Shown in pieces: positions 5,437-17,052 of a DNA stretch of 25,225 nt (positions within the stretch are counted from its first letter, which is position 1; each line of letters begins with the position of its first letter). The DNA lies in the IMG/VR virus record IMGVR_UViG_3300042542_001177, positions 1-25,225 of that record. The stretch is one strand, 5' to 3'. Source of the DNA: a virus. The translations under genes and the position numbers were made by a program. The notes under the pieces were generated by a model. The model was given only the letters and a program-made list of their open reading frames with translations. It searched no databases and had not been told where the DNA came from.

Positions 5437-6348
5437 GTGGCAGATATTACAATAGAAGTAACGTCGCCTGGTACTCTTACCACATGGGGAAACTCTACTT
5501 GGAGTTCAGCAGCATGGGGACAAATTTCAGGATTAAGCACTGAGCAATCCAGTGCTGATATTACAATAGATTCATCAGTAGACTTATCTACAAATTTATT
5601 AAACACAACAACAGATAGTGTATCTTTTACAATTACAGGAAGTGTAGATCTATCTACAAATTTATTAAACACAACAACAGGTACAGCCGAAGGACAAAAT
5701 AATATAGAAGTAGAAGTTACTTCTCCTGGTGATTTACCTTGGGGTACTGAAGCGTGGGGTTATGGTTCTTGGGGTAATATTGGTGGAATGGATATTTCTA
5801 TTGGACAAGATACTGTTCTTGTTCCTTCAGTAGAAGTAGACATAACTGGTAATCAATTAAATACAACTACAGGAACTTTATCAATTACAGGAGATGCTAG
5901 CCTTGATTTAACTGGAATAGATTCTGCTACAACTACTGGAACAGTAACTGCTCAAATAGATTTTGATGCAGCTATTACAGGGCAATCTATAGTAACTACA
6001 GTAGCAACGGTTTCTATTACAGCGGATGCTAATATAGATGTAAATGGAAGTTCATTAATTATATCTATAGGAGATGCAGAAGAACAGATTACAGCTGATA
6101 TATTTTTAACTGGAAATGCAATTTCTATAGATCTAGGATCGGCTGAATTAGACGCAAATACACTTGTAGATGCAACATCCGTATCTGCAACAACTACTAT
6201 AAATTCAGTGTCTATAATTGTAGATGTAGCACCAGATATTACAGGTCTAAATATGACCACTTCTACAGGAACTGTGTTTATAAGTGCTTGGGCAGTAGTA
6301 GATATAGGTATAACTAACAATTGGGCTGTTGTTGACATAGCGGCCTAA
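5437..6348 (+). CDS. Repetitive beta-strand virion protein without basic residues
   Basis: This 303-residue protein starts at GTG 5437 behind a strong AGGAGG. The sequence is made almost entirely of Thr, Ser, Asp, Ile, Val, Gly, Asn and Ala in repeating beta-like units (VDITG, then LNTTTGTLSITG, then LDLTG). A short Trp-rich unit occurs twice: TWGNSTWSSAAWG near residue 16 and PWGTEAWGYGSWG near 101. By eye there is no Lys, Arg, His or Cys in the whole protein. The ending (FISAWAVVDIGITNNWAVVDIAA) resembles the C-terminal cap of a repeat protein common in marine phages. It is probably a fibrous or decorative virion protein next to the tail fibre. Function and location are inferred from composition and neighbours. 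Confidence 0.75.
   Translation: MADITIEVTSPGTLTTWGNSTWSSAAWGQISGLSTEQSSADITIDSSVDLSTNLLNTTTDSVSFTITGSVDLSTNLLNTTTGTAEGQNNIEVEVTSPGDLPWGTEAWGYGSWGNIGGMDISIGQDTVLVPSVEVDITGNQLNTTTGTLSITGDASLDLTGIDSATTTGTVTAQIDFDAAITGQSIVTTVATVSITADANIDVNGSSLIISIGDAEEQITADIFLTGNAISIDLGSAELDANTLVDATSVSATTTINSVSIIVDVAPDITGLNMTTSTGTVFISAWAVVDIGITNNWAVVDIAA
5578..5680 (+). repeat. Two 37-base direct repeats inside the repeat protein gene
   Basis: Segments 5578-5614 and 5644-5680 match at 35 of 37 positions, 66 bases apart, and encode VDLSTNLLNTTT twice. Such high nucleotide identity implies recent duplication within the coding repeat region. Confidence 0.85.
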
Positions 6349-6390
6349 TCAAACTAAAATTGGGTATTATTACAACTTTTAAAAGAATTT

Positions 6391-7626
6391 ATGGCATCTA
6401 GTTTTTCTACAGATCTTAAACTTGAGCTGATGGTAACAGGGGAAAACTCTGGAACCTGGGGCGATAAAACAAATACAAATTTAAACTTATTACAACAAGC
6501 AATAGCTGGTTATCAGTCTATAGCACTTACTTCCATTAATACAACTTTAGTAATGACTGATGCTACAATATCAGATGCTAGAAATGCTGTTATAGAATTT
6601 ACAGGAACCCTTGCAGCCAATGCTACTGTTTTTGTAGCAAGTGGAATTGAAAAAACATATACAATTAAAAATAGCACAACAGGTGCATTTACATTAGCAT
6701 TAAATCAAGTTGGTGGATCTTCTGTTATTTGGGGAGCAACTGAAAAAAATATTAAAGGTGTGTATTTAAATGGAACAAATGCAAATACAATTGACCTTAG
6801 CACATTAGGTGGACAGATTAGCACTAGTACAGCATTAGCAGATTTTGTTATTGGTCCTAATGAATTAGATACATCATCAGTTACATCAGTTAAAATTGCA
6901 TCTTTCGCAGTTACATCTACAGGATTAGATACATCGGCAGTTACATCAGTTAAAATTGCTTCTTTCGCAGTTACATCAGGAGCATTAGACACAGCATCAG
7001 TTACATCATTTAAAATAGCAGCAGCAGCTGTAGGACCTACTCAATTACAAAACACTTCAGTTACTGCAGCATCTTACACAGCAGCATCAATTACAGTCGA
7101 TGCTCAAGGTAGAATTACTGCCGCATCTTCTGGATCAGCAGGTGCTGGAATGGGGATACCTACTTTGATGGTACAAGGACCTGGTTCAGGAACTTATACT
7201 GCGGGACCAACTGCAAACAGAATTGGTGTATACATGTATGCAGGTGGAGGAGCTGGTGCCAGTCCTATGTGTGCTAATAATAGCGGTGGTAAGGGTGGAG
7301 CCGGATTTTATAATAAACCTATAACACAACCTTTTTCACAACCTTATTCTGTTGGTGCTGGTGGAAATTCACCAGGTGGAGCAGGAGGAAATACCACAAT
7401 CGCTAATGTAGGTACTGTTAATGGAGGGGGTAGTGGTGCTAATTCAACTGGAGCAAATGGCAATCAACCAGGTTCAGATTTAACAATAGTCGATGCATTT
7501 AGACCAGGAGGATCTGGCTCACTCTTTTCACAGGGCTCCAGCGTTGCTACTGGTAGAGGATCGCAGGGTGCTGGCCAACCTGGTGGAGCTGGGCTTTTGG
7601 TAGTTTTTGAAAACAGTGGAACATAA
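6391..7626 (+). CDS. Tail fibre/adhesin with glycine-rich tip
   Basis: This 411-residue protein starts MASSFSTDLKLELMVTGENS and continues GTWGDKTNTNLNLL, an N-terminal module typical of marine phage tail fibres that probably attaches the fibre to the virion. Residues about 159-218 are three 20-residue repeats (LDTSAVTSVKIASFAVTS-type), followed by ITVDAQGRITAASSG (234-248), a common shaft element. Residues about 284-402 are strongly Gly-rich (AGGGAGA, GGKGGAGF, YSVGAGGNSPGGAGGN, GPNG-like turns). These resemble glycine-rich receptor-binding tips built from polyglycine-II helices, as known for T4-like gp38 adhesins. The following gene encodes a small protein that may assist fibre assembly. Host receptor binding is inferred. 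Confidence 0.8.
   Translation: MASSFSTDLKLELMVTGENSGTWGDKTNTNLNLLQQAIAGYQSIALTSINTTLVMTDATISDARNAVIEFTGTLAANATVFVASGIEKTYTIKNSTTGAFTLALNQVGGSSVIWGATEKNIKGVYLNGTNANTIDLSTLGGQISTSTALADFVIGPNELDTSSVTSVKIASFAVTSTGLDTSAVTSVKIASFAVTSGALDTASVTSFKIAAAAVGPTQLQNTSVTAASYTAASITVDAQGRITAASSGSAGAGMGIPTLMVQGPGSGTYTAGPTANRIGVYMYAGGGAGASPMCANNSGGKGGAGFYNKPITQPFSQPYSVGAGGNSPGGAGGNTTIANVGTVNGGGSGANSTGANGNQPGSDLTIVDAFRPGGSGSLFSQGSSVATGRGSQGAGQPGGAGLLVVFENSGT
6865..7044 (+). repeat. Three tandem 60-base coding repeats in tail fibre gene
   Basis: Units start at 6865, 6925 and 6985, each encoding LDT-(A/S)-VTS-(V/F)-KIA-(S/A)-(F/A)-AV. The first two units are nearly identical in DNA and the third is more diverged. 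This is a repeat shaft whose copy number could change by recombination or slippage. Confidence 0.85.
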
Positions 7627-7627
7627 T

Positions 7628-8074
7628 ATGTCTTTTTTTATTTTTTTAAAAAACTTTGATAATGTGTCTGGTTCTATTTATAGAATTGCAGAAAATCAAA
7701 ATGATTTAAATAATTTAAATATTATTCAATCTGATTATAAAATAATTGAAGATTCGCAAGAAAACTTTAATGCAGTAAAATATAAAACAAAATCTATAGA
7801 TAAATATAACAGCAATCAAATATTTTATGAAGATTCCTCTATAAAATTTTTGAATAAAGAAGAGTTAAGTAATTACATTGTTTTAACAAAATATGCTATT
7901 CAGATGTTTTTAGACAGTAATCAAAATCATTCATTATTTAACCAATGGAATAATTATAAAAATCAATTAGGATCATTAAATTTAAATAATATTGAATATC
8001 CTTTAAATAAATCATTAGAGCAGTACTTTAATGATTTAGGGCAACCTTCTTATAATATTTTACAAATACCATAA
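7628..8074 (+). CDS. Tail-fibre-associated protein, possible fibre chaperone
   Basis: This 148-residue protein starts at ATG 7628, two bases after the tail fibre stop. An in-frame TTG at 7607 would overlap the fibre gene and is less likely. The N-terminus (MSFFIFLKNFDNVSGSIYRI) is hydrophobic. The rest is very rich in Asn, Lys, Tyr and Ile, and the C-terminus is PLNKSLEQYFNDLGQPSYN. Proteins of this type commonly follow tail fibre genes in AT-rich marine phages, so a fibre-assembly or fibre-tip role is plausible. It has no motif of a known chaperone family. It is the first gene of the markedly AT-richer block that extends to 11825. Confidence 0.65.
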   Translation: MSFFIFLKNFDNVSGSIYRIAENQNDLNNLNIIQSDYKIIEDSQENFNAVKYKTKSIDKYNSNQIFYEDSSIKFLNKEELSNYIVLTKYAIQMFLDSNQNHSLFNQWNNYKNQLGSLNLNNIEYPLNKSLEQYFNDLGQPSYNILQIP

Positions 8075-8093: not shown

Positions 8094-8849
8094 ATGTTCG
8101 ATAAAGAAATAGAGTTTAGTGCTCATGAAGATTATTTTGTATTAAAAGAAGATTATCCTATCCCTGCAAAATTAAATATACCCGAATGGTATAAAAAATT
8201 AGAACATACTATATTAAATAAAACTGTAAAAGGCTGTATGCCGTTTTTAGATTCTTTAACATCTGGTTACATTTTAAAAATGCCACAAGATTTTCATGTT
8301 AGACATAATGTAGATAGTAAAGACAATGAAGGAAAAGAAATTAAAGATTCTTTTCAAACTTTTGGACTTCATGATCAATTAAATTTTATAACTGCAAAAA
8401 ATCTTAATTTGAATTCTGGGATAGATGTTCATCCAACAAAACAGCTTACTGGATTTCCTTTAATTAAAAAAAATAAAAATTTACCTTTTTATAAAATACT
8501 AAATCCTTGGAAAATAAAAACACCAAAAGGATATTCTTGTTTATTTGTACCTCCGTTAAATAATTCAGATGATCGATTTTCAATAATACCAGGAATAGTT
8601 GATACAGATACTTTTCCAAATGAAATAAATTTTCCAATTATTATTAACGGAGATAAGTATCCTGTTTTAGAAACAACAATTCAAAAAGGAACCCCTTATG
8701 TTCAAATAATTCCTTTTAAAAGAGAAAGTTGGAAAATGAAATTAAAACAAAGAGAACAAAAAGAAATACAAAACTCTAGACTTTTTTATGGATTAAAATT
8801 ATTAAATATTTATAAAGATAAATACTGGAATAAAAAATCATGGAAATAA
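8094..8849 (+). CDS. DUF6065-like protein
   Basis: This 251-residue soluble protein matches in outline the DUF6065 pattern as I recall it. It has IPEWYKKLEH near residue 29, then VKGCMPFLDSLTSGYILKMP (residues 45-64). Further on come PKGYSCLFVPPLN near 144, IIPGIVDTDTFP (164-175), and a C-terminal GTPYVQIIPFKRESW (199-213). The family has no function known to me. In phages it is often adjacent to 2-oxoglutarate oxygenase genes, as here, where five follow. It may act on the same substrate or be another enzyme of the same pathway; this is inference. The stop overlaps the next start by 10 bases, implying coupled translation with the first oxygenase. Confidence 0.65.
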   Translation: MFDKEIEFSAHEDYFVLKEDYPIPAKLNIPEWYKKLEHTILNKTVKGCMPFLDSLTSGYILKMPQDFHVRHNVDSKDNEGKEIKDSFQTFGLHDQLNFITAKNLNLNSGIDVHPTKQLTGFPLIKKNKNLPFYKILNPWKIKTPKGYSCLFVPPLNNSDDRFSIIPGIVDTDTFPNEINFPIIINGDKYPVLETTIQKGTPYVQIIPFKRESWKMKLKQREQKEIQNSRLFYGLKLLNIYKDKYWNKKSWK

Positions 8850-9409
8850 AAAATTTTATAAAAATATACGATGAGCTTCTGCCTTGGAATGTGTTGTCTA
8901 ATTTAATACGTTTTGCAAATGTTTCAAAATTTGAAGAAACGAAAGTAGGGGGTAGTATAGAAAGCAGAATTGATTTTAATATTAGAAAAACATATACATT
9001 GCCGTTATCAAATTTAAATAATTCATTATCTAATGTTCATTGGTTTAATTTACTACATTCTTATTTTAATAAAAATTTAAAACAATACAAATTAGATGCA
9101 AATATTTTAGACTATGATTATCAAAATATTTTTGACATAGAAATTTTAAAATATGAAAACACTGGTTTTTATACTTGGCATGTAGATCATTTTGCAACAA
9201 TTCCAAGAACGATGAGTTGTATATTACTTTTAAATAATGATTACGAGGGTGGAAATTTATGTTTTAGAAATCCAGATGGCTCTGGAGAATGGGAAGTAGA
9301 AGTTAAACCAAATAGAATGATTATTTGGCCAAGTAATTTTTTATATCCTCATACAGTTAAACCAGTGACGAAAGGAAAAAGGTATTCAGTTGTAGCATGG
9401 GCACTTTAG
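8840..9409 (+). CDS. 2-oxoglutarate/Fe(II)-dependent oxygenase (prolyl-hydroxylase-like)
   Basis: This 189-residue protein has the complete metal triad of the 2OG-Fe(II) dioxygenase fold. H114 and D116 lie in FYTWHVDHF, and H171 in YPHTV. The 2-oxoglutarate-binding Arg is R181, in GKRYSVVAWAL. GGNLCFRNPDGSGEW (138-151) between them is the usual strand-turn of PKHD/prolyl-4-hydroxylase-type domains. Such enzymes hydroxylate peptides or small molecules using Fe(II), O2 and 2-oxoglutarate. It begins inside the DUF6065-like gene and its end overlaps the next oxygenase by 13 bases. The substrate is unknown; tail or surface molecules are suggested only by location. Confidence 0.85.
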   Translation: MEIKNFIKIYDELLPWNVLSNLIRFANVSKFEETKVGGSIESRIDFNIRKTYTLPLSNLNNSLSNVHWFNLLHSYFNKNLKQYKLDANILDYDYQNIFDIEILKYENTGFYTWHVDHFATIPRTMSCILLLNNDYEGGNLCFRNPDGSGEWEVEVKPNRMIIWPSNFLYPHTVKPVTKGKRYSVVAWAL

Positions 9410-9888
9410 ATTATAAAATAATAAATAATTTTTTAGAAAAAGATATTTTAGATAATTTTAAAAATATTTTATTTTCAAATAACATTGAATGGTTTTTTTT
9501 ACCACACATGACGAGAGAAGATCATTATTTTTTTAACCATTGTTTTTATAATAATTTTGTTCCAAGGTCTCCTTATTATTTAGGATATATTGAACCAATA
9601 TTAATTAAATTAAAAGTAAATGCTGTTTGTGAAGTAAGAGCTAATTTACAATTAAAAGGGAAAAATCAATATCAATCTGGTTTTCATGTAGATAGACCTT
9701 TTGAATGTAAAACAGCAATATTATATATGAATACATGTAATGGATATACTATATTAGATGAAAATAAAAAAATTAAAATTTACAGTGAAGAGAATAAAAT
9801 GTTGATATTTAATTCTCAAATTAAACATGCTGCAATGAGTCAGACAGACGTAGATAGAAGAATAGTAATAAATTTTAATTTTTTTTAA
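9397..9888 (+). CDS. 2-oxoglutarate/Fe(II) oxygenase-like protein
   Basis: This 163-residue protein shows the HxD...H...R arrangement. H97 and D99 lie in SGFHVDRPF, H144 in QIKHAAM, and R154/R155 in DVDRRIVINFNFF. The TAILYMNTCNGYT segment (106-118) is the strand following the HxD motif. It is short for the fold and ends right after the final strand. The sequence differs strongly from the other oxygenases here, so it is not a recent tandem copy. It overlaps the preceding gene by 13 bases and ends two bases before the next. The fold is well supported; the substrate is unknown. Confidence 0.8.
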   Translation: MGTLDYKIINNFLEKDILDNFKNILFSNNIEWFFLPHMTREDHYFFNHCFYNNFVPRSPYYLGYIEPILIKLKVNAVCEVRANLQLKGKNQYQSGFHVDRPFECKTAILYMNTCNGYTILDENKKIKIYSEENKMLIFNSQIKHAAMSQTDVDRRIVINFNFF

Positions 9889-9890
9889 AT

Positions 9891-10436
9891 ATGAAAACAA
9901 TAAAAGATTTTAAATATAAACTAGTTAAAAAATTTTTAACTAAAGAAGAAATTAAATTATTAACAGATTATTGTAGAATAAAGCATAGAATTAATTTTGA
10001 TTCTTTTGATTTTCAACAAAATAATAATGGGGATACTTTTTTCTATGGAGATCCTTTAATGGAATCTTTAATGATAAATAAATTAGAAATAATGCAAAAA
10101 GAAACAGGTCTTGAATTATTATGTACTTATGCTTTTTGGAGAATGTACACAATAAATGCAGATTTAAAAAAACACAAAGATAGACCTGCTTGTGAAATAA
10201 GTGTTACTGTAATGATTGGATCAGATGGAACTAAATGGCCAATTTATATGGATGGAACAGAAATAAACATGGAACCAGGAGATGCTGCCATATATCTTGG
10301 ATGTGAAATAGAACATTGGAGAGAAGAGTTTAAAGGAGATTGGCATGCACAAACGTTTTTACATTATGTAGATAAAAATGGTGAAAATAAGGATTGGGCT
10401 AAAGATAAAAGAATATTATGGGGAACGCAAAAATGA
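9891..10436 (+). CDS. 2OG-Fe(II) oxygenase-superfamily protein (KHKDRPxCEIS type)
   Basis: This 181-residue protein carries KHKDRPACEISVTVMIG (94-110), with a probable HxD pair at H95 and D97. MEPGDAAIYLGCEIEHWREEF (127-147) follows with the distal H142, and HAQTFLHYVDKNG lies at 152-164. This HKDRP...HWRE...FLHYVD pattern belongs to a recognisable phage/bacterial branch of the double-stranded beta-helix oxygenases. The usual Arg about 10 residues after the distal His is not obvious; Q154 or another residue would have to fill that role. 2-oxoglutarate use is therefore less certain than for its neighbours. The 3' end overlaps the next gene as ATGA. The substrate is unknown. Confidence 0.7.
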   Translation: MKTIKDFKYKLVKKFLTKEEIKLLTDYCRIKHRINFDSFDFQQNNNGDTFFYGDPLMESLMINKLEIMQKETGLELLCTYAFWRMYTINADLKKHKDRPACEISVTVMIGSDGTKWPIYMDGTEINMEPGDAAIYLGCEIEHWREEFKGDWHAQTFLHYVDKNGENKDWAKDKRILWGTQK

Positions 10437-10987
10437 ATTTTGAATTAAAGGTAAAAGAAGTTATTAAAGAAACTTTTATACTAACTGGTAAAATAGATAA
10501 TAAAGATATTATAAATAATTTAATAAATTTTGTAAAAAATAATAAAGATGAAGAACTAAGTTATAAAACAAATGTTAAAGGACATTTTACAGGTTTTTTT
10601 AGTTTAGTAAAAAATAACGACTTTATAAATTTTTTAAAAGAAATACAGCCACAAATAAAAACTGTATATCAAGACAATTTTATAATTTCTGAAGCTTGGG
10701 GAAATCTTTGTAAAATAGGAGAAGAAGTTACTGAACATTCTCATGCTGGTGTTTCTGGGTTTTGTGGTATACTATATTTAACTGATGGCGGGCCTGGTAC
10801 ATATTTTAAAGAATATGATTTATTAATTAAAGAAGAAATAGGAAAATTTATATTATTTCACCCTATTTTAAATCATAGTGTAAAAAAAATTGAAAATGAT
10901 ATAGAAAGAATTACAGTAGCGTTTAATATGGAACAATTTAAAAATTGGGAAAAAAATGATAACATAATGTGGGTAAATAAAAAATGA
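10433..10987 (+). CDS. 2OG-Fe(II) oxygenase-like protein (Oxy_5 type)
   Basis: This 184-residue protein starts at ATG 10433 in an ATGA overlap. An upstream in-frame ATG at 10418 would add five residues but overlap more, so 10433 is preferred. EHSHAGVSGFCGILYLTDGG (101-120) holds the metal-binding His pair (H102/H104), and LFHPILNHSVKKI holds the distal H148. R159, in ERITVAFNME, is the likely 2-oxoglutarate contact. The layout resembles the 2OG-FeII_Oxy_5 type, in which HxH replaces HxD. An N-terminal helical half precedes the domain. It ends ATGA-overlapped with the next gene. Confidence 0.75.
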   Translation: MNFELKVKEVIKETFILTGKIDNKDIINNLINFVKNNKDEELSYKTNVKGHFTGFFSLVKNNDFINFLKEIQPQIKTVYQDNFIISEAWGNLCKIGEEVTEHSHAGVSGFCGILYLTDGGPGTYFKEYDLLIKEEIGKFILFHPILNHSVKKIENDIERITVAFNMEQFKNWEKNDNIMWVNKK

Positions 10988-11202
10988 AATTTAAACAATA
11001 CCAAAATGGATCTTGTGATATAGAATTTTCTGTAAAAGAAAGATGGATTATTTTAAAAAAAGGAAAAATACATTTATCTGATGAGGCTTTAAGACATTTT
11101 GGAAATAATTTAGTTAAAATGGTTTCTGAATGGAATTTAAAATTTAAACAAGAAACACAAGAAAAAATTACATACGACAATACTAAAATTGAAGGTAAAT
11201 GA
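10984..11202 (+). CDS. 72-residue protein within oxygenase cassette
   Basis: This small hydrophilic protein has MKFKQYQNGSCDIEFSVKER at the N-terminus, then WIILKKGKIHLSDEALRHFGNNLV and WNLKF. It is coupled by ATGA overlaps to oxygenase genes on both sides. A GKI-LSDEALRHFGN-type segment is seen in small proteins of other marine phages; the function is unknown. No metal or cofactor motif is visible. Its conserved-looking core and coupling to two oxygenases suggest a partner or regulator of those enzymes, which is inference only. Confidence 0.65.
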   Translation: MKFKQYQNGSCDIEFSVKERWIILKKGKIHLSDEALRHFGNNLVKMVSEWNLKFKQETQEKITYDNTKIEGK

Positions 11203-11825
11203 GTTTAATTGAAAATCATATTTTTAATACACCTATTTATTTTAGTGAAAAAAAAGATTGGGTAGAAAAAATAAATAAAATATCTAATCCTTACATACAA
11301 AAAGCAAAAGAAGAAAATAAATTAATTAATAATAAAGATTTTGTAATAGTTCATCATTCTCAATCTTTAATTCAAGACATTGATTTTAAAGAATTTTTGA
11401 ACTATATAAATAGTAATGCTTTTGATATATTAAATAATCAAGGGTTTGATCTTACAAACTATTCATTAGCTACAACTGAATTATGGGTTCAAGAATTTCC
11501 AAGTTTAGGCGGTGGAAACCATTCTCCACATATTCATTGGAATGGGCATATATCAGGTTTTTATTTTTTAAAATGTTCAGAAAAAACATCATATCCTGTT
11601 TTTCATGATCCAAGAACTGGACGAATGATGAATTTACTTCCTGAAAAAGATCAATCCCAGATTACACTAGCTTCTTCTTCAATTAATTTTAAACCAGAAC
11701 CAGGAACTTTTATTTTTTTTAATTCATATCTACAACATGAATTTGTAGTAGATCATGGAATTGAACCTTTTAGATTCATTCATTTTAATATACAAGCTTT
11801 TCCTAATTATCTTATAAAGAAATAA
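11199..11825 (+). CDS. 2OG-Fe(II) oxygenase, Oxy_5 family-like
   Basis: This 208-residue protein is the clearest member of the HxHxN subgroup. HSPHIHWNGHISGFYFL (108-124) contains H111, H113 and N115. PEPGTFIFFNSYLQHEFV (167-183) contains the distal H180, and R192 follows in PFRFIHFNIQA. This spacing matches putative 2OG-Fe(II) oxygenases of the PF13759 type. An N-terminal region of about 90 residues (starting MSLIENHIFNTPIYF) is also typical of that family. It overlaps the 72-residue gene as ATGA and is the last gene of the AT-richer block; the promoter-bearing spacer follows. The substrate is unknown. Confidence 0.85.
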   Translation: MSLIENHIFNTPIYFSEKKDWVEKINKISNPYIQKAKEENKLINNKDFVIVHHSQSLIQDIDFKEFLNYINSNAFDILNNQGFDLTNYSLATTELWVQEFPSLGGGNHSPHIHWNGHISGFYFLKCSEKTSYPVFHDPRTGRMMNLLPEKDQSQITLASSSINFKPEPGTFIFFNSYLQHEFVVDHGIEPFRFIHFNIQAFPNYLIKK

Positions 11826-11931: not shown

Positions 11932-13884
11932 ATGCCATTAAAAAAGATACCATTACCTCCAGGCTTTGATAAGAATGATACTGCATCTCAAGCAGAAGGT
12001 CGTTGGATTGATGGAGATAATATACGTTTTCAATATGGATCCCCTGAAAAGATAGGTGGTTGGCAACAAATTAATACATCTATATTAGTAGGAGCTGCTA
12101 GAGATATACATTCTTGGTTTGATTTAACAGGCAGACGTTACGTGGCTATTGGAACAAATAAAGTTTTATATGTTCTTTTTGACCAAGTGTTTTATGATAT
12201 CACTCCCCTTGACGCAACTAGAGCTTTAGCTTCTTGCACGTATACTTCTATAACAGGATCAGCAACGGTTACAATTAATAAAAATTCGCATGGATTATTA
12301 GTTGGAGACTTAATTAAATTTACAAGTGCCACGACTCCAGGACCCACTACAACTGGATACACAACAGCAAGTTTTACAACAAATACATTTGAAGTTGTCG
12401 GTGTACCTAATTTAAACACATTTACTATTACTATGGCAACAGTTGAAACTGGAACTGGAGTAACTGGTGGAGGAACATTAGGATTAACACCTTATTATAT
12501 TATAGGTCCTCTTTCAGCAACATTAGCATATGGATGGGGAGCTGGAACATGGAACCTATCTACTTGGGGAACACCACGAACGGTATCTAATACAGATATT
12601 GCAGCAGCAAATTGGTCATTAGATAATTTTGGAGAAAACTTAATAGCAACGATTAAAGAAGGCTCAACATTTGAATGGGACCCAGCAGCAGGTACGGGAG
12701 TTAATACACGTGCAACTATTATAGCGGGCAATCCTACAACTACAGTTTTAACGAGAGTATCGGATAGAGATAGACATTTAATTCATTTTGGAACAGAAAC
12801 AGTTATTGGAACGTCCTCTACACTTGATCCAATGTTTATAAGATTTTCTGATCAAGAAGATATACAAGTATATGAACCAACTTCTACTAATACTGCTGGT
12901 ACATTTAGATTAGATAATGGCAGTAGAATTGTAGCTGCTGTTAAAGGTAAAGATTACATATTAGTTTTAACAGATGAAGCAGCTTATACAATGCAATTTG
13001 TAGGACCTCCTTTTACTTTCAGTATAAGACAAGTTGGATCTAATTGTGGATGTATTGGACAACATGCAGCGATTTTTGTAGACGGTGCTGTTTTCTGGAT
13101 GGGGGATTCTGGTAATTTCTTTGTGTTTGATGGAACAGTTAAAACATTACCTTGTACAGTAGATGATTTTGTATTTACAACAAATGGAGATAGTTTAGGT
13201 ATTAATTTTGTAAATGGTGAAATTGTATATGCAGGACATAATAGTTTATTTAATGAAATTAATTGGTTCTATCCTAAGAATACTTCTACTCAAATAGATA
13301 GAGTTGTTACATATAATTATGAAGAAAAATCTTGGTCTACAGGATCACTTGCAAGAACAACGTATGAGGATGCACATGTTCTTTCAACACCAACGGCTAC
13401 ACAATATTTATCTACCTTAACTCCTAATTCCCCTACTATTAATGGTGTAAGTAATAGTGGTAGTTATGTTTTTGCACACGAAGTTGGAGTTAATGAAGTA
13501 TTAAATTTAGCAACTAATAATACGACAAGTATAGTTATATCTTCTTACATAAGATCAGGAGACTTTGATCTTGATATAGAAGGAGATGGTGAATACTTTA
13601 TTAAAATTAGAAGATTTATTCCTGACTTTAAATATTTAGAAGGTAATGCCAAAGTAACATTATTCTTTAAAGCTTATCCCGCAGATTCAACCACGGCTCA
13701 AGGATTAACGACTATTGGTCCATTTACAATATCTTCAACAACAGATAAGATAGATACACGTGCAAGAGGAAGACTTGCTAGTATTAAAATTGAAAATGAT
13801 GCAATAAATGATAACTGGCGTTATGGGGTATTTAGAGTAGATATACAACCAGACGGCAGAGGCGGAAGTGCTCCACAAACATAA
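11932..13884 (+). CDS. P22 gp10-like tail hub / packaged-DNA stabilisation protein
   Basis: This 650-residue protein begins MPLKKIPLPPGFDKNDTASQ, followed by AEGRWIDGDNIRFQYGSPEKIGGW. That opening is typical of marine homologues of the phage stabilisation (P22 gp10) family. These proteins close the portal channel after packaging and form the tail hub with a beta-propeller. Repeated blade-like segments follow (GRRYVAIGTNKVLYV, KDYILVLTDEAAYTM, AAIFVDGAVFWMGDSGNFFV). A late RARGRLASIKIENDAINDNW segment matches the typical C-terminal strand. It is longer than P22 gp10, with Thr/Gly-rich insertions around residues 100-200. It is the first gene after the promoter-bearing spacer and has no Shine-Dalgarno site. 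Family assignment is good; exact structural role is inferred. Confidence 0.75.
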   Translation: MPLKKIPLPPGFDKNDTASQAEGRWIDGDNIRFQYGSPEKIGGWQQINTSILVGAARDIHSWFDLTGRRYVAIGTNKVLYVLFDQVFYDITPLDATRALASCTYTSITGSATVTINKNSHGLLVGDLIKFTSATTPGPTTTGYTTASFTTNTFEVVGVPNLNTFTITMATVETGTGVTGGGTLGLTPYYIIGPLSATLAYGWGAGTWNLSTWGTPRTVSNTDIAAANWSLDNFGENLIATIKEGSTFEWDPAAGTGVNTRATIIAGNPTTTVLTRVSDRDRHLIHFGTETVIGTSSTLDPMFIRFSDQEDIQVYEPTSTNTAGTFRLDNGSRIVAAVKGKDYILVLTDEAAYTMQFVGPPFTFSIRQVGSNCGCIGQHAAIFVDGAVFWMGDSGNFFVFDGTVKTLPCTVDDFVFTTNGDSLGINFVNGEIVYAGHNSLFNEINWFYPKNTSTQIDRVVTYNYEEKSWSTGSLARTTYEDAHVLSTPTATQYLSTLTPNSPTINGVSNSGSYVFAHEVGVNEVLNLATNNTTSIVISSYIRSGDFDLDIEGDGEYFIKIRRFIPDFKYLEGNAKVTLFFKAYPADSTTAQGLTTIGPFTISSTTDKIDTRARGRLASIKIENDAINDNWRYGVFRVDIQPDGRGGSAPQT

Positions 13885-15917: not shown

Positions 15918-16138
15918 TGACACAGAAAACAGTAATTATAGATGGAGAAGAAGTTCCAGTATTACCAGCTAAGGCTGAAGAGATTATTAAGAATAAATCT
16001 ACTGGACAAACATATTCAAATTTAGAAGAATTCCATGCTGATGTAGCAAATCCTAACACACCCACAAAAGCAGAAGATTTACAGCAAGACCTTAAAATAA
16101 CAGTTGCATCTTTGACAGTATTTGGTAAAACCAAGTAA
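15917..16138 (+). CDS. 73-residue conserved marine-phage protein
   Basis: ATG 15917 is used rather than the in-frame TTG at 15914, because it overlaps the previous stop by one base. The product MTQKTVIIDGEEVPVLPAKA continues with STGQTYSNLEEFHADVANPN and ends in a QDLKITVASLTVFGKTK strand. A conserved-looking Y-(S/T)-x-L-EE-x-ADV-NP-T pattern is common in small marine phage proteins, whose function I do not know. It has no membrane segment. The stop overlaps the glycosyltransferase start as TAATG, so the two are translationally coupled. Confidence 0.65.
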   Translation: MTQKTVIIDGEEVPVLPAKAEEIIKNKSTGQTYSNLEEFHADVANPNTPTKAEDLQQDLKITVASLTVFGKTK

Positions 16139-17052
16139 TGAACCCATACGGCGGCACCGAAATTCAGGTAGAGTATTTACATAAATACGTATCTAAAGAT
16201 CTTCTTAATAAAGTTCAAATAACAACTTCTGTTCCAGAAAAAGATAAACTAGTAATAGATAAGTCTAATGTACTTTGGGTGCATAATAGTTATGATCAAC
16301 CTAATGTTATGCCTTGGTTTAAAAACAAATTAAATCACGGTAAGTACGATCATTATGTATTTAACTCTCACTGGACTTATGAAAAGTTTAGATATTTTTT
16401 TAGTCTACCTACAGAGTTATGTTCAGTTATTAAAAATGGATTTGATAATGATTTAATTATTAAGACTGATTTTAAACCTAAAGATAAAATAAAACTAGTT
16501 TATACTTCAACACCTTGGCGTGGATTAGATGTACTTCTAGATGCTATGGAACAGATTAAAACAGATAAAGTAGAATTAGATGTTTACTCAAGTACACAGA
16601 TATATGGAGATGCTTTTAAGAATCAAACAGATAAACAGTTTACAGCTTTGTACGATAAAGCAAAATCAATGAAAAATGTAAATTATAAAGGTTATCTACA
16701 CCATAAAGAATTAATGAAAGTATTACATACTTATGATGCTTATGTTCATCCATCTACATTTGAAGAAACTTTTTGTGTAGCTGCCATGGAATCATTAGCA
16801 GCGGGTCTTGTTGTAGTGACCACGGACCTCGGTGCTTTATATGAAACATGTGCTGAGTTTCCAATATATATTCCACACCAGAATAGTAAAAAATTATTAG
16901 CTACTCAATTTGCTTCAGTTATAGATCAATTACCTTCTATATTAAGTAATCCTGATGAAAATAAAATGAAATTTCAGCAACAGTACTATAGACAATTTTA
17001 TCATTGGAATGTAATAAAGACTTATTGGGAGAATTTTTTAAATGGGATTTAA
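16138..17052 (+). CDS. GT4-like (GT-B) glycosyltransferase
   Basis: This 304-residue protein has an N-terminal GGTE loop (residues 5-8) and an acceptor-side WVHNSYDQPNVMPWF segment. NGFDNDLI marks the domain junction. The donor-binding half has VYTSTPWRGLDVLLDAM and AYVHPSTFEETFCVAAMESL. The last contains the EX7E pair E210/E218, diagnostic of GT4-type retaining glycosyltransferases that transfer sugar from an activated donor. It is shorter than typical GT4 enzymes because the first Rossmann domain starts right at the GGTE loop; the same short form is common in phages. It overlaps the next gene, a GT-A enzyme, by 11 bases. The acceptor is unknown; virion proteins or host surface glycans are options. 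Confidence 0.8.
   Translation: MNPYGGTEIQVEYLHKYVSKDLLNKVQITTSVPEKDKLVIDKSNVLWVHNSYDQPNVMPWFKNKLNHGKYDHYVFNSHWTYEKFRYFFSLPTELCSVIKNGFDNDLIIKTDFKPKDKIKLVYTSTPWRGLDVLLDAMEQIKTDKVELDVYSSTQIYGDAFKNQTDKQFTALYDKAKSMKNVNYKGYLHHKELMKVLHTYDAYVHPSTFEETFCVAAMESLAAGLVVVTTDLGALYETCAEFPIYIPHQNSKKLLATQFASVIDQLPSILSNPDENKMKFQQQYYRQFYHWNVIKTYWENFLNGI

Follow-up and report, generated by a model that had tools for sequence, protein, structure and literature searches.

A virion-linked array of 2-oxoglutarate/Fe(II) oxygenase-type genes with a constant core and exchangeable slots in a pelagiphage relative

Gene content of the oxygenase block

The DNA considered here is a viral sequence of 25,225 nucleotides (IMG/VR record IMGVR_UViG_3300042542_001177, positions 1 to 25,225; hereafter the window). 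It features a block of five adjacent genes at 8840-11825 whose products are assigned from their sequences to the 2-oxoglutarate (2OG)/Fe(II) oxygenases, with at least three sequence types among them. Seen across relatives, the block consists of a constant core and three slots of interchangeable oxygenases, often with capping transferases, between fibre-like and structural genes. It is proposed, with a probability of roughly 40%, that the block is a combinatorial hydroxylate-and-decorate module whose target would be the virion tail in the first place, or else an envelope glycan. The gene neighbourhood is that of HTVC023P and HTVC027P, cultured phages of SAR11, the most common bacteria of the ocean; a 7.6-kb query from the structural region is covered to 34% by HTVC023P and to 27% by HTVC027P, in both cases at 68-69% DNA identity. 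This structural-module similarity, together with gene order, is the basis for assigning the window to a relative of the HTVC023P-type pelagiphages, of which it is a fragment.

All of the genes of the window described here lie on the + strand. The block opens with a DUF6065-like core gene (8094..8849, 251 amino acids (aa); phrog_7084, E = 1.7e-47), followed by oxygenase 1 (8840..9409, 189 aa), a core gene of the PKHD/prolyl-hydroxylase type; oxygenase 2 (9397..9888, 163 aa), which occupies the first slot, between genes 1 and 3; and oxygenase 3 (9891..10436, 181 aa), again a core gene, with a predicted prolyl-hydroxylase fold. Oxygenase 4 (10433..10987), in the second slot, is of the 2OG-FeII_Oxy_5 type. 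A start at 10418 is possible for it, but the ATG at 10433 is the better one, given its ATGA overlap with gene 3 and its agreement with relatives. A 72-aa core gene (10984..11202), present in most of 121 related IMG/VR loci and without a significant family match in Pfam and PHROG profile searches, separates the second slot from the third, which holds oxygenase 5 (11199..11825, 208 aa), of the 2OG-FeII_Oxy_5/TIGR02466 type. From the DUF6065-like gene to gene 5 the successive overlaps are 10, 13, 19 (4 from the 10433 start), 4, and 4 nt, and genes 2 and 3, with a 2-nt gap, are the sole separated pair. The block is bordered upstream by a tail-fibre-like gene (6391..7626) and downstream by a gene for a virion structural protein (11932..13884; phrog_3287, 5.5e-87).

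The original prediction, made from the letters of the window, thus holds for the open reading frames (ORFs), order, overlaps, and metal motifs of the five genes, as well as for their coupling with the DUF6065-like and 72-residue genes inside the tail module. Its naming of the downstream gene as a tail hub is not established, phrog_3287 being annotated as "virion structural protein", and the likeness to DUF6065 is weak: relatives of the protein match PF19541 in 6 of 23 cases (best E = 0.019), and a Pfam search with the protein of the window itself gave no PF19541 match.

Evidence for the oxygenase assignment

The metal motifs are H114-V-D116/H171 in gene 1, H97-V-D99/H144 in gene 2, H95-K-D97/H142 in gene 3, and H111-I-H113/H180 in gene 5. 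The HxH...H motif of gene 4 is H102/H104/H148 when counted from 10433 and H107/H109/H153 from 10418; in the latter numbering H107 and H153 are conserved and H148 is not. In each of the five families, across 129-243 distinct homologues, the ligands vary little or not at all (H114 of gene 1, for instance, is the same in 243 homologues), except for the second ligand of gene 2, which is D or H. A basic residue of the kind that anchors 2OG, usually Arg, follows the distal His in genes 1, 2, 4, and 5 (R181, R155, and R192 in genes 1, 2, and 5, respectively). Of 1223 ORFs of related loci that are labelled as oxygenases, 760 contain the pattern HxD/H...H...R, against 7 of 1054 ORFs with other labels.

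Profile and structure matches differ in strength from gene to gene. Gene 1 matches PF13640 (2.6e-18) and, among solved structures, PKHD hydroxylases (1.8e-11) and prolyl 3-hydroxylase (5.2e-8). The PF13640 match of gene 2 (6.9e-4) is below the curated cut-off, while 18 of 25 members of its family match that profile, the best at 1e-6. Gene 5 is matched by PF13759 (3.5e-14), TIGR02466 (3.6e-16), and structure 3bvc (4.7e-11), and gene 4 by PF13759 (1.7e-7) and weakly by 3bvc (0.0032); for genes 2 and 3, a PDB sequence search returned nothing significant. The double-stranded beta-helix, put forward earlier as a check on the assignment, is found for gene 3 in an AlphaFold2 model and for genes 1, 4, and 5, and more weakly gene 2, through Pfam and PDB profile matches.

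By blastp the five oxygenases are mutually unrelated, the only match being between genes 4 and 5 (E = 0.045). This rules out tandem duplication as the origin of the array and agrees with the earlier view of an assembled set of several sequence types. Pairwise hhalign of narrow family profiles gave nothing significant, even though the HxD motifs of genes 1 and 3 line up; comparing single pairs that have few effective sequences is a weak method, and the outcome was not used.

A constant core and exchangeable slots

Genes 1 and 3 were used as queries to retrieve 121 IMG/VR loci, a set that is hence biased toward loci having them. Throughout this set the genes follow one order and their overlaps are conserved: fibre, 155-aa gene, DUF6065-like gene, gene 1, gene 3, 72-aa gene, structural gene. 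Three gaps (between genes 1 and 3, between gene 3 and the 72-aa gene, and between the latter and the structural gene) are empty or hold up to six ORFs. The constant core therefore comprises the DUF6065-like gene, gene 1, gene 3, and the 72-aa gene; genes 2, 4, and 5 lie in exchangeable slots, which leaves genes 1 and 3 as the constant pair among the oxygenases. Slot ORFs form 34 families, among them the ones to which genes 2, 4, and 5 belong. Of these, 22 are labelled oxygenase-like, or 24 with genes 1 and 3 added; the 24 divide into 17 with direct Pfam 2OG or cupin matches (<0.01), 3 of the DUF6445/WelO5 type, 3 recognised by motif alone (c5, c10, and c20), and gene 3, recognised by fold. The 27 non-redundant complete blocks have 27 different contents, no two alike. 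A single fixed multi-step pathway on one substrate class, as had been suggested, is not supported by two constant oxygenases and 27 different contents; a combinatorial tailoring set fits better, because the slots are exchangeable and every block content differs.

A less biased repeat, anchored on the downstream structural gene, gave 33 loci in which the upstream sequence extends for 5 kb or more. Oxygenases lie upstream in 32 of the 33 and number four or more in 22, with gene 3 found in 27 and gene 1 in 24; in several of these loci the oxygenases are on the opposite strand. The array is therefore a regular feature of this structural module. Clusters of 3-6 oxygenase genes also lie by tail or neck genes in the cultured pelagiphages HTVC023P, HTVC033P, HTVC008M, and Mosig; in these four phages and in 023Pt_psg01 and S-T4 there are oxygenase clusters by such genes, with the misnamed genes discussed below included; the arrangement is therefore typical of the group rather than peculiar to this phage. 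Together with the published oxygenases of the lineage (Wittmers et al., 2022; PMC9599517), these observations do not support the view that a five-enzyme operon in the tail module is unusual. Linkage to tail genes, on which that prediction also leaned, breaks down in part: a lone gene 3 relative lies among the replication genes of P-SSM7, and further relatives occur in bacteria, although the multi-gene arrays keep their link to virion genes.

Several loci are of note in their own right. The longest runs, in L237 and L239, comprise ten consecutive oxygenase-type genes immediately upstream of the structural gene. The upstream oxygenase genes of L291, whose structural protein is 95% identical to that of the window, run in the opposite direction and make up a different set, suggesting that a whole cassette was replaced. 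Tryptophan-halogenase-like genes (PF04820, 1.4e-88) lie inside phage oxygenase arrays in L394, L376, L384, L389, L406, and L203, and some of these halogenase-bearing phage contigs have been binned as bacterial genomes.

At least one non-oxygenase slot gene is present in 13 of the 27 complete blocks. The slots include O-carbamoyltransferases (PF16861, the C-terminus, 1.2e-51), glycosyltransferases (PF04488, 2.9e-14), sulfotransferases (PF13469, 3.2e-13), and a CmcI-like O-methyltransferase (5e-13), in addition to a QueC-like protein and small kinase- and cytidylyltransferase-like proteins. These partners bring in the explanation that the oxygenases modify host envelope or lipopolysaccharide glycans, as serotype-converting phage genes do, and so block superinfection or alter release, with the carbamoyl-, glycosyl-, and sulfotransferases decorating the same glycan. 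The sugar-decorating types of the partners (NodU/CmcH carbamoyltransferase, DXD glycosyltransferase, sulfotransferase) and the high turnover of slot content would be in keeping with it. The tie of the array to the virion gene module and the action on proteins of the best-characterised core relatives argue against it, as does the description of HTVC023P-type phages as lytic (HTVC027P; PMC12753301), which leaves little time for surface remodelling. This explanation is considered rather unlikely.

Two probably misnamed gene families

Gene 3 belongs to PHROG 2954 (4.8e-47), a family that bears the name "ferrochelatase", and gene 2 to PHROG 274 (3.5e-39), which carries the name "DNA endonuclease V". 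No Pfam family matches gene 3. The AlphaFold2 model of its product, built with 43 relatives, has a predicted local distance difference test (pLDDT) score of 89.3 and a predicted template modelling score of 0.86. It is mostly a beta barrel and matches PHD2 and P4H over residues 1-173 of 181. Foldseek returned 469 solved chains below 0.001, led by the Pseudomonas prolyl-4-hydroxylase/EF-Tu complex (4iw3, 8.8e-8), with the HIF prolyl hydroxylase PHD2 among the leaders. The VIA comparison with PHD2 gave Z 15.2 and a root-mean-square deviation (rmsd) of 3.0 over 161 aligned residues; absence of a family from the VIA matches listed was not counted as exclusion. All 229 distinct homologues keep H95, D97, and H142. 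A ferrochelatase is not supported for gene 3, given that none of the 43 relatives matches PF00762 at E<=1 and that the model does not have the alpha/beta fold of chelatases. The "ferrochelatase" of ocean virus surveys is, judging from this model, probably one more oxygenase. DNA endonuclease V is likewise not supported for gene 2, since no Endonuclease V or DenV Pfam family was matched by its 25 members at E<=0.01 while 18 match 2OG-FeII_Oxy_3; gene 2 is accordingly read from sequence as an oxygenase as well.

The name of PHROG 2954 probably traces to the cyanophage cluster T4-GC 615, labelled "hyp. with ferrochelatase domain" (Sullivan et al., 2010; PMC3037559); the P-SSM7 member of that cluster falls in the gene 3 family. 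Two later papers rely on this name: in pelagiphages, PHROG 2954-type "partner" genes found with 2OG oxygenases have been read as ferrochelatases (PMC9599517), and phrog61 and phrog2954 have been reported as enriched in seasonal viral types (PMC11561400); gene 1 and gene 3 of the window are members of these two PHROGs, respectively. Such genes have been placed in host iron or haem metabolism, for which ferrochelatase partners were proposed in PMC9599517 and PMC11561400, or in 2OG/nitrogen signalling, for which 2OG and NtcA in cyanophages were proposed in PMC3037559. The invariant HxD...H, the prolyl-hydroxylase fold, and the 0 of 43 ferrochelatase matches of the supposed chelatase speak against the former, and consumption of 2OG alone would leave the many distinct families beside virion genes unexplained in the latter; a role of either kind is regarded as highly improbable. 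If PHROG 2954 is an oxygenase family, the published pairing with iron and haem needs revision, and two seasonally enriched categories become one.

The leading Foldseek match of gene 3 also bears on the explanation that the oxygenases serve host takeover by hydroxylating EF-Tu, ribosomal, or other host proteins, thereby retuning translation. The match to a complex with EF-Tu is in its favour. A fixed host target would need neither 22 exchangeable slot families nor capping transferases, and the genes are positioned among late virion genes. A role in host takeover is judged quite unlikely.

Gene 3 relatives also occur in bacteria, and the true cellular ones have varied neighbours, which gave no hint of a substrate; many metagenome-assembled "cellular" matches are phage contigs by gene content. 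In L416, L418, and L419 distant relatives are flanked by the genes for the two subunits of ribonucleotide reductase, large on one side and small on the other, and in L373 both subunit genes adjoin one. Six loci assigned to a metagenome-assembled genome of Maricaulis (isolate IN14; L366, L372, L376, L392, L394, and L406) carry phage-type oxygenase arrays, some of them together with fibre- or hub-like genes; these contigs are probably mis-binned phage.

The DUF6065-like protein, and DNA hypermodification as an unlikely alternative

The model of the DUF6065-like protein (pLDDT 72) resembles the dUTPase beta-barrel (Z 10.2, rmsd 2.4, 119 aligned). Its top 50 structural matches are all dUTPases, with Foldseek E not below 0.0036, and its conserved GIVDTD and KGTPYVQ(V/I)IPF are reminiscent of dUTPase motifs III and IV. 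A dUTPase-like reading is taken from this model as a lead only. Homologues of the protein also occur in haloarchaeal tailed viruses.

In phages with TET-type DNA hypermodification, an oxygenase makes a hydroxyl that a transferase caps, so the resemblance to the present block is in the manner of working. By analogy, the oxygenases could hydroxylate bases that transferases then cap. The shared logic, the dUTPase resemblance, and a weak profile match of gene 3 to a Tet-like dioxygenase (E = 0.16) are in line with this. Pfam and PHROG profile searches of the block proteins found neither a TET/JBP homologue nor a DNA methyltransferase, the slot families and 43 gene 3 relatives likewise gave no TET/JBP match, and both the number of oxygenases, too many for one base, and the tail-module location count against it. 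DNA hypermodification is consequently judged very unlikely.

Selection and a test for covariation with the fibre

In the window's clade, dN/dS (the ratio of nonsynonymous to synonymous substitution rates; NG86 method) is 0.10 for gene 3, 0.17 for gene 1, 0.18 for the DUF6065-like gene, 0.28 for the structural gene, 0.44 for the fibre, and 0.43-0.60 for the slot genes, of which only the ranking is meaningful because dS is near saturation. Within the region, constraint is strongest in the core and loose in the slot genes. Slot content covaries with the fibre tip in 27 blocks (Mantel test, r = 0.29, p = 0.003) and also in 55 blocks, a set that mixes two block types and in which physical linkage is a confounder; a larger set of 66 blocks, given below, did not confirm it.

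Proposed function

In the proposed hydroxylate-and-decorate module, the array genes would be made late, together with the tail proteins. The oxygenases would bind Fe(II), 2OG, and O2 and hydroxylate a macromolecule, and in many relatives transferases would cap the new hydroxyls. The likeliest target would be residues at the surface of the tail fibre or tail proteins of the phage itself, so that the surface chemistry for adsorption or for escape from resistance would differ from phage to phage; a host envelope glycan would come next. Such chemistry is suggested by the fact that hydroxylases adjoin hydroxyl-capping enzymes. A virion protein is favoured because of the position in the virion module and because both constant enzymes have protein-hydroxylase relatives, the closest solved relatives of the core being enzymes that act on EF-Tu, HIF, and collagen, while an envelope glycan keeps its place since the transferases are of the sugar type. 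It is possible, if doubtful, that the block is more specifically a recombination-driven module for chemical diversity, in which two constant prolyl-hydroxylase-like oxygenases and swappable oxygenases, transferases, and some halogenases tailor the virion tail post-translationally. If so, related and abundant ocean phages would differ in surface chemistry besides fibre sequence.

Several observations weigh against this proposal. The VIA comparison of gene 3 has SnoN, an enzyme that acts on small molecules, in first place (Z 15.7), in a tie with PHD2. PiuC-type PKHD enzymes, relatives of gene 1, are not proven protein hydroxylases. The P. putida P4H, PHD2/EGLN1, PKHD-type PiuC, and P3H1 resemble genes 1 and 3 in fold and in metal triad, but identity is low (about 10-19%), and gene 3 is without their usual 2OG-anchoring Arg about 10 residues past the last, distal His; its R84 and R144 are invariant and could be the anchors. 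The slots of the window hold no capping enzyme, the sole candidate being a glycosyltransferase 4 kb downstream. Finally, in 66 blocks, with inner slots only, slot content and fibre tip gave r = 0.06 (p = 0.08); covariation being positive in 27 blocks and failing in 66, the fibre-tip test does not decide the target.

Relation to known systems

Arrays of 2OG oxygenases in this pelagiphage lineage have already been published, with HTVC023P as representative; genes of the PHROG 2954 type have several non-orthologous oxygenases in their neighbourhood (Wittmers et al., 2022; PMC9599517). There, the partner was linked to haem and iron as a ferrochelatase and the oxygenases were called "not adjacent", whereas here the partner itself has an oxygenase fold in its model, the genes are contiguous, and the layout is one of core plus slots with capping enzymes. 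Cyanomyoviruses share the protein families and have several oxygenases per genome, and the genes listed for them include a carbamoyltransferase and prnA (Sullivan et al., 2010; PMC3037559), but these were explained by 2OG/nitrogen signalling or DNA repair, and the P-SSM7 copy stands alone. Genes 4 and 5 share family and HxH...H site with TIGR02466/2OG-FeII_Oxy_5 proteins such as 3bvc (Roseovarius Ism_01780), which are single uncharacterised bacterial proteins outside any array. Many marine phage 2OG oxygenases have been reported to resemble EGLN3 in the Phold paper (PMC12774648), the text of which does not name PHROG 2954. Within the part of the literature covered, no paper was found that re-annotates PHROG 2954 or PHROG 274, describes the core-and-slots layout, or reports the capping partners. 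This layout sharpens the question of whether marine phage 2OG oxygenases act on virion protein, envelope glycan, host protein, or DNA, for which HTVC023P and HTVC033P on host HTCC1062 are cultured systems.

Flanking features

The upstream tail-fibre-like gene encodes 411 aa with a glycine-rich C-terminal tip (phrog_31104, 1.8e-24; phrog_892 tail fiber, 1.4e-5). A promoter-like TTGACA-17-TAAAAT precedes it at 6332-6360, hits of this kind being at chance level; promoter-scan counts were at or below, and terminator-scan counts about, shuffled expectation. Between the fibre and DUF6065-like genes, its usual position, lies the 155-aa gene (7607..8074; TTG start, with ATG 7628 possible), which is syntenic in most of the 121 loci and has no family match in Pfam and PHROG profile searches. 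The glycosyltransferase of the tail module (16138..17052; PF00534, 1.1e-15; phrog_2170, 3.6e-35) is a possible partner of the array, and a glycosyltransferase is annotated at the corresponding region in both HTVC023P and HTVC027P.

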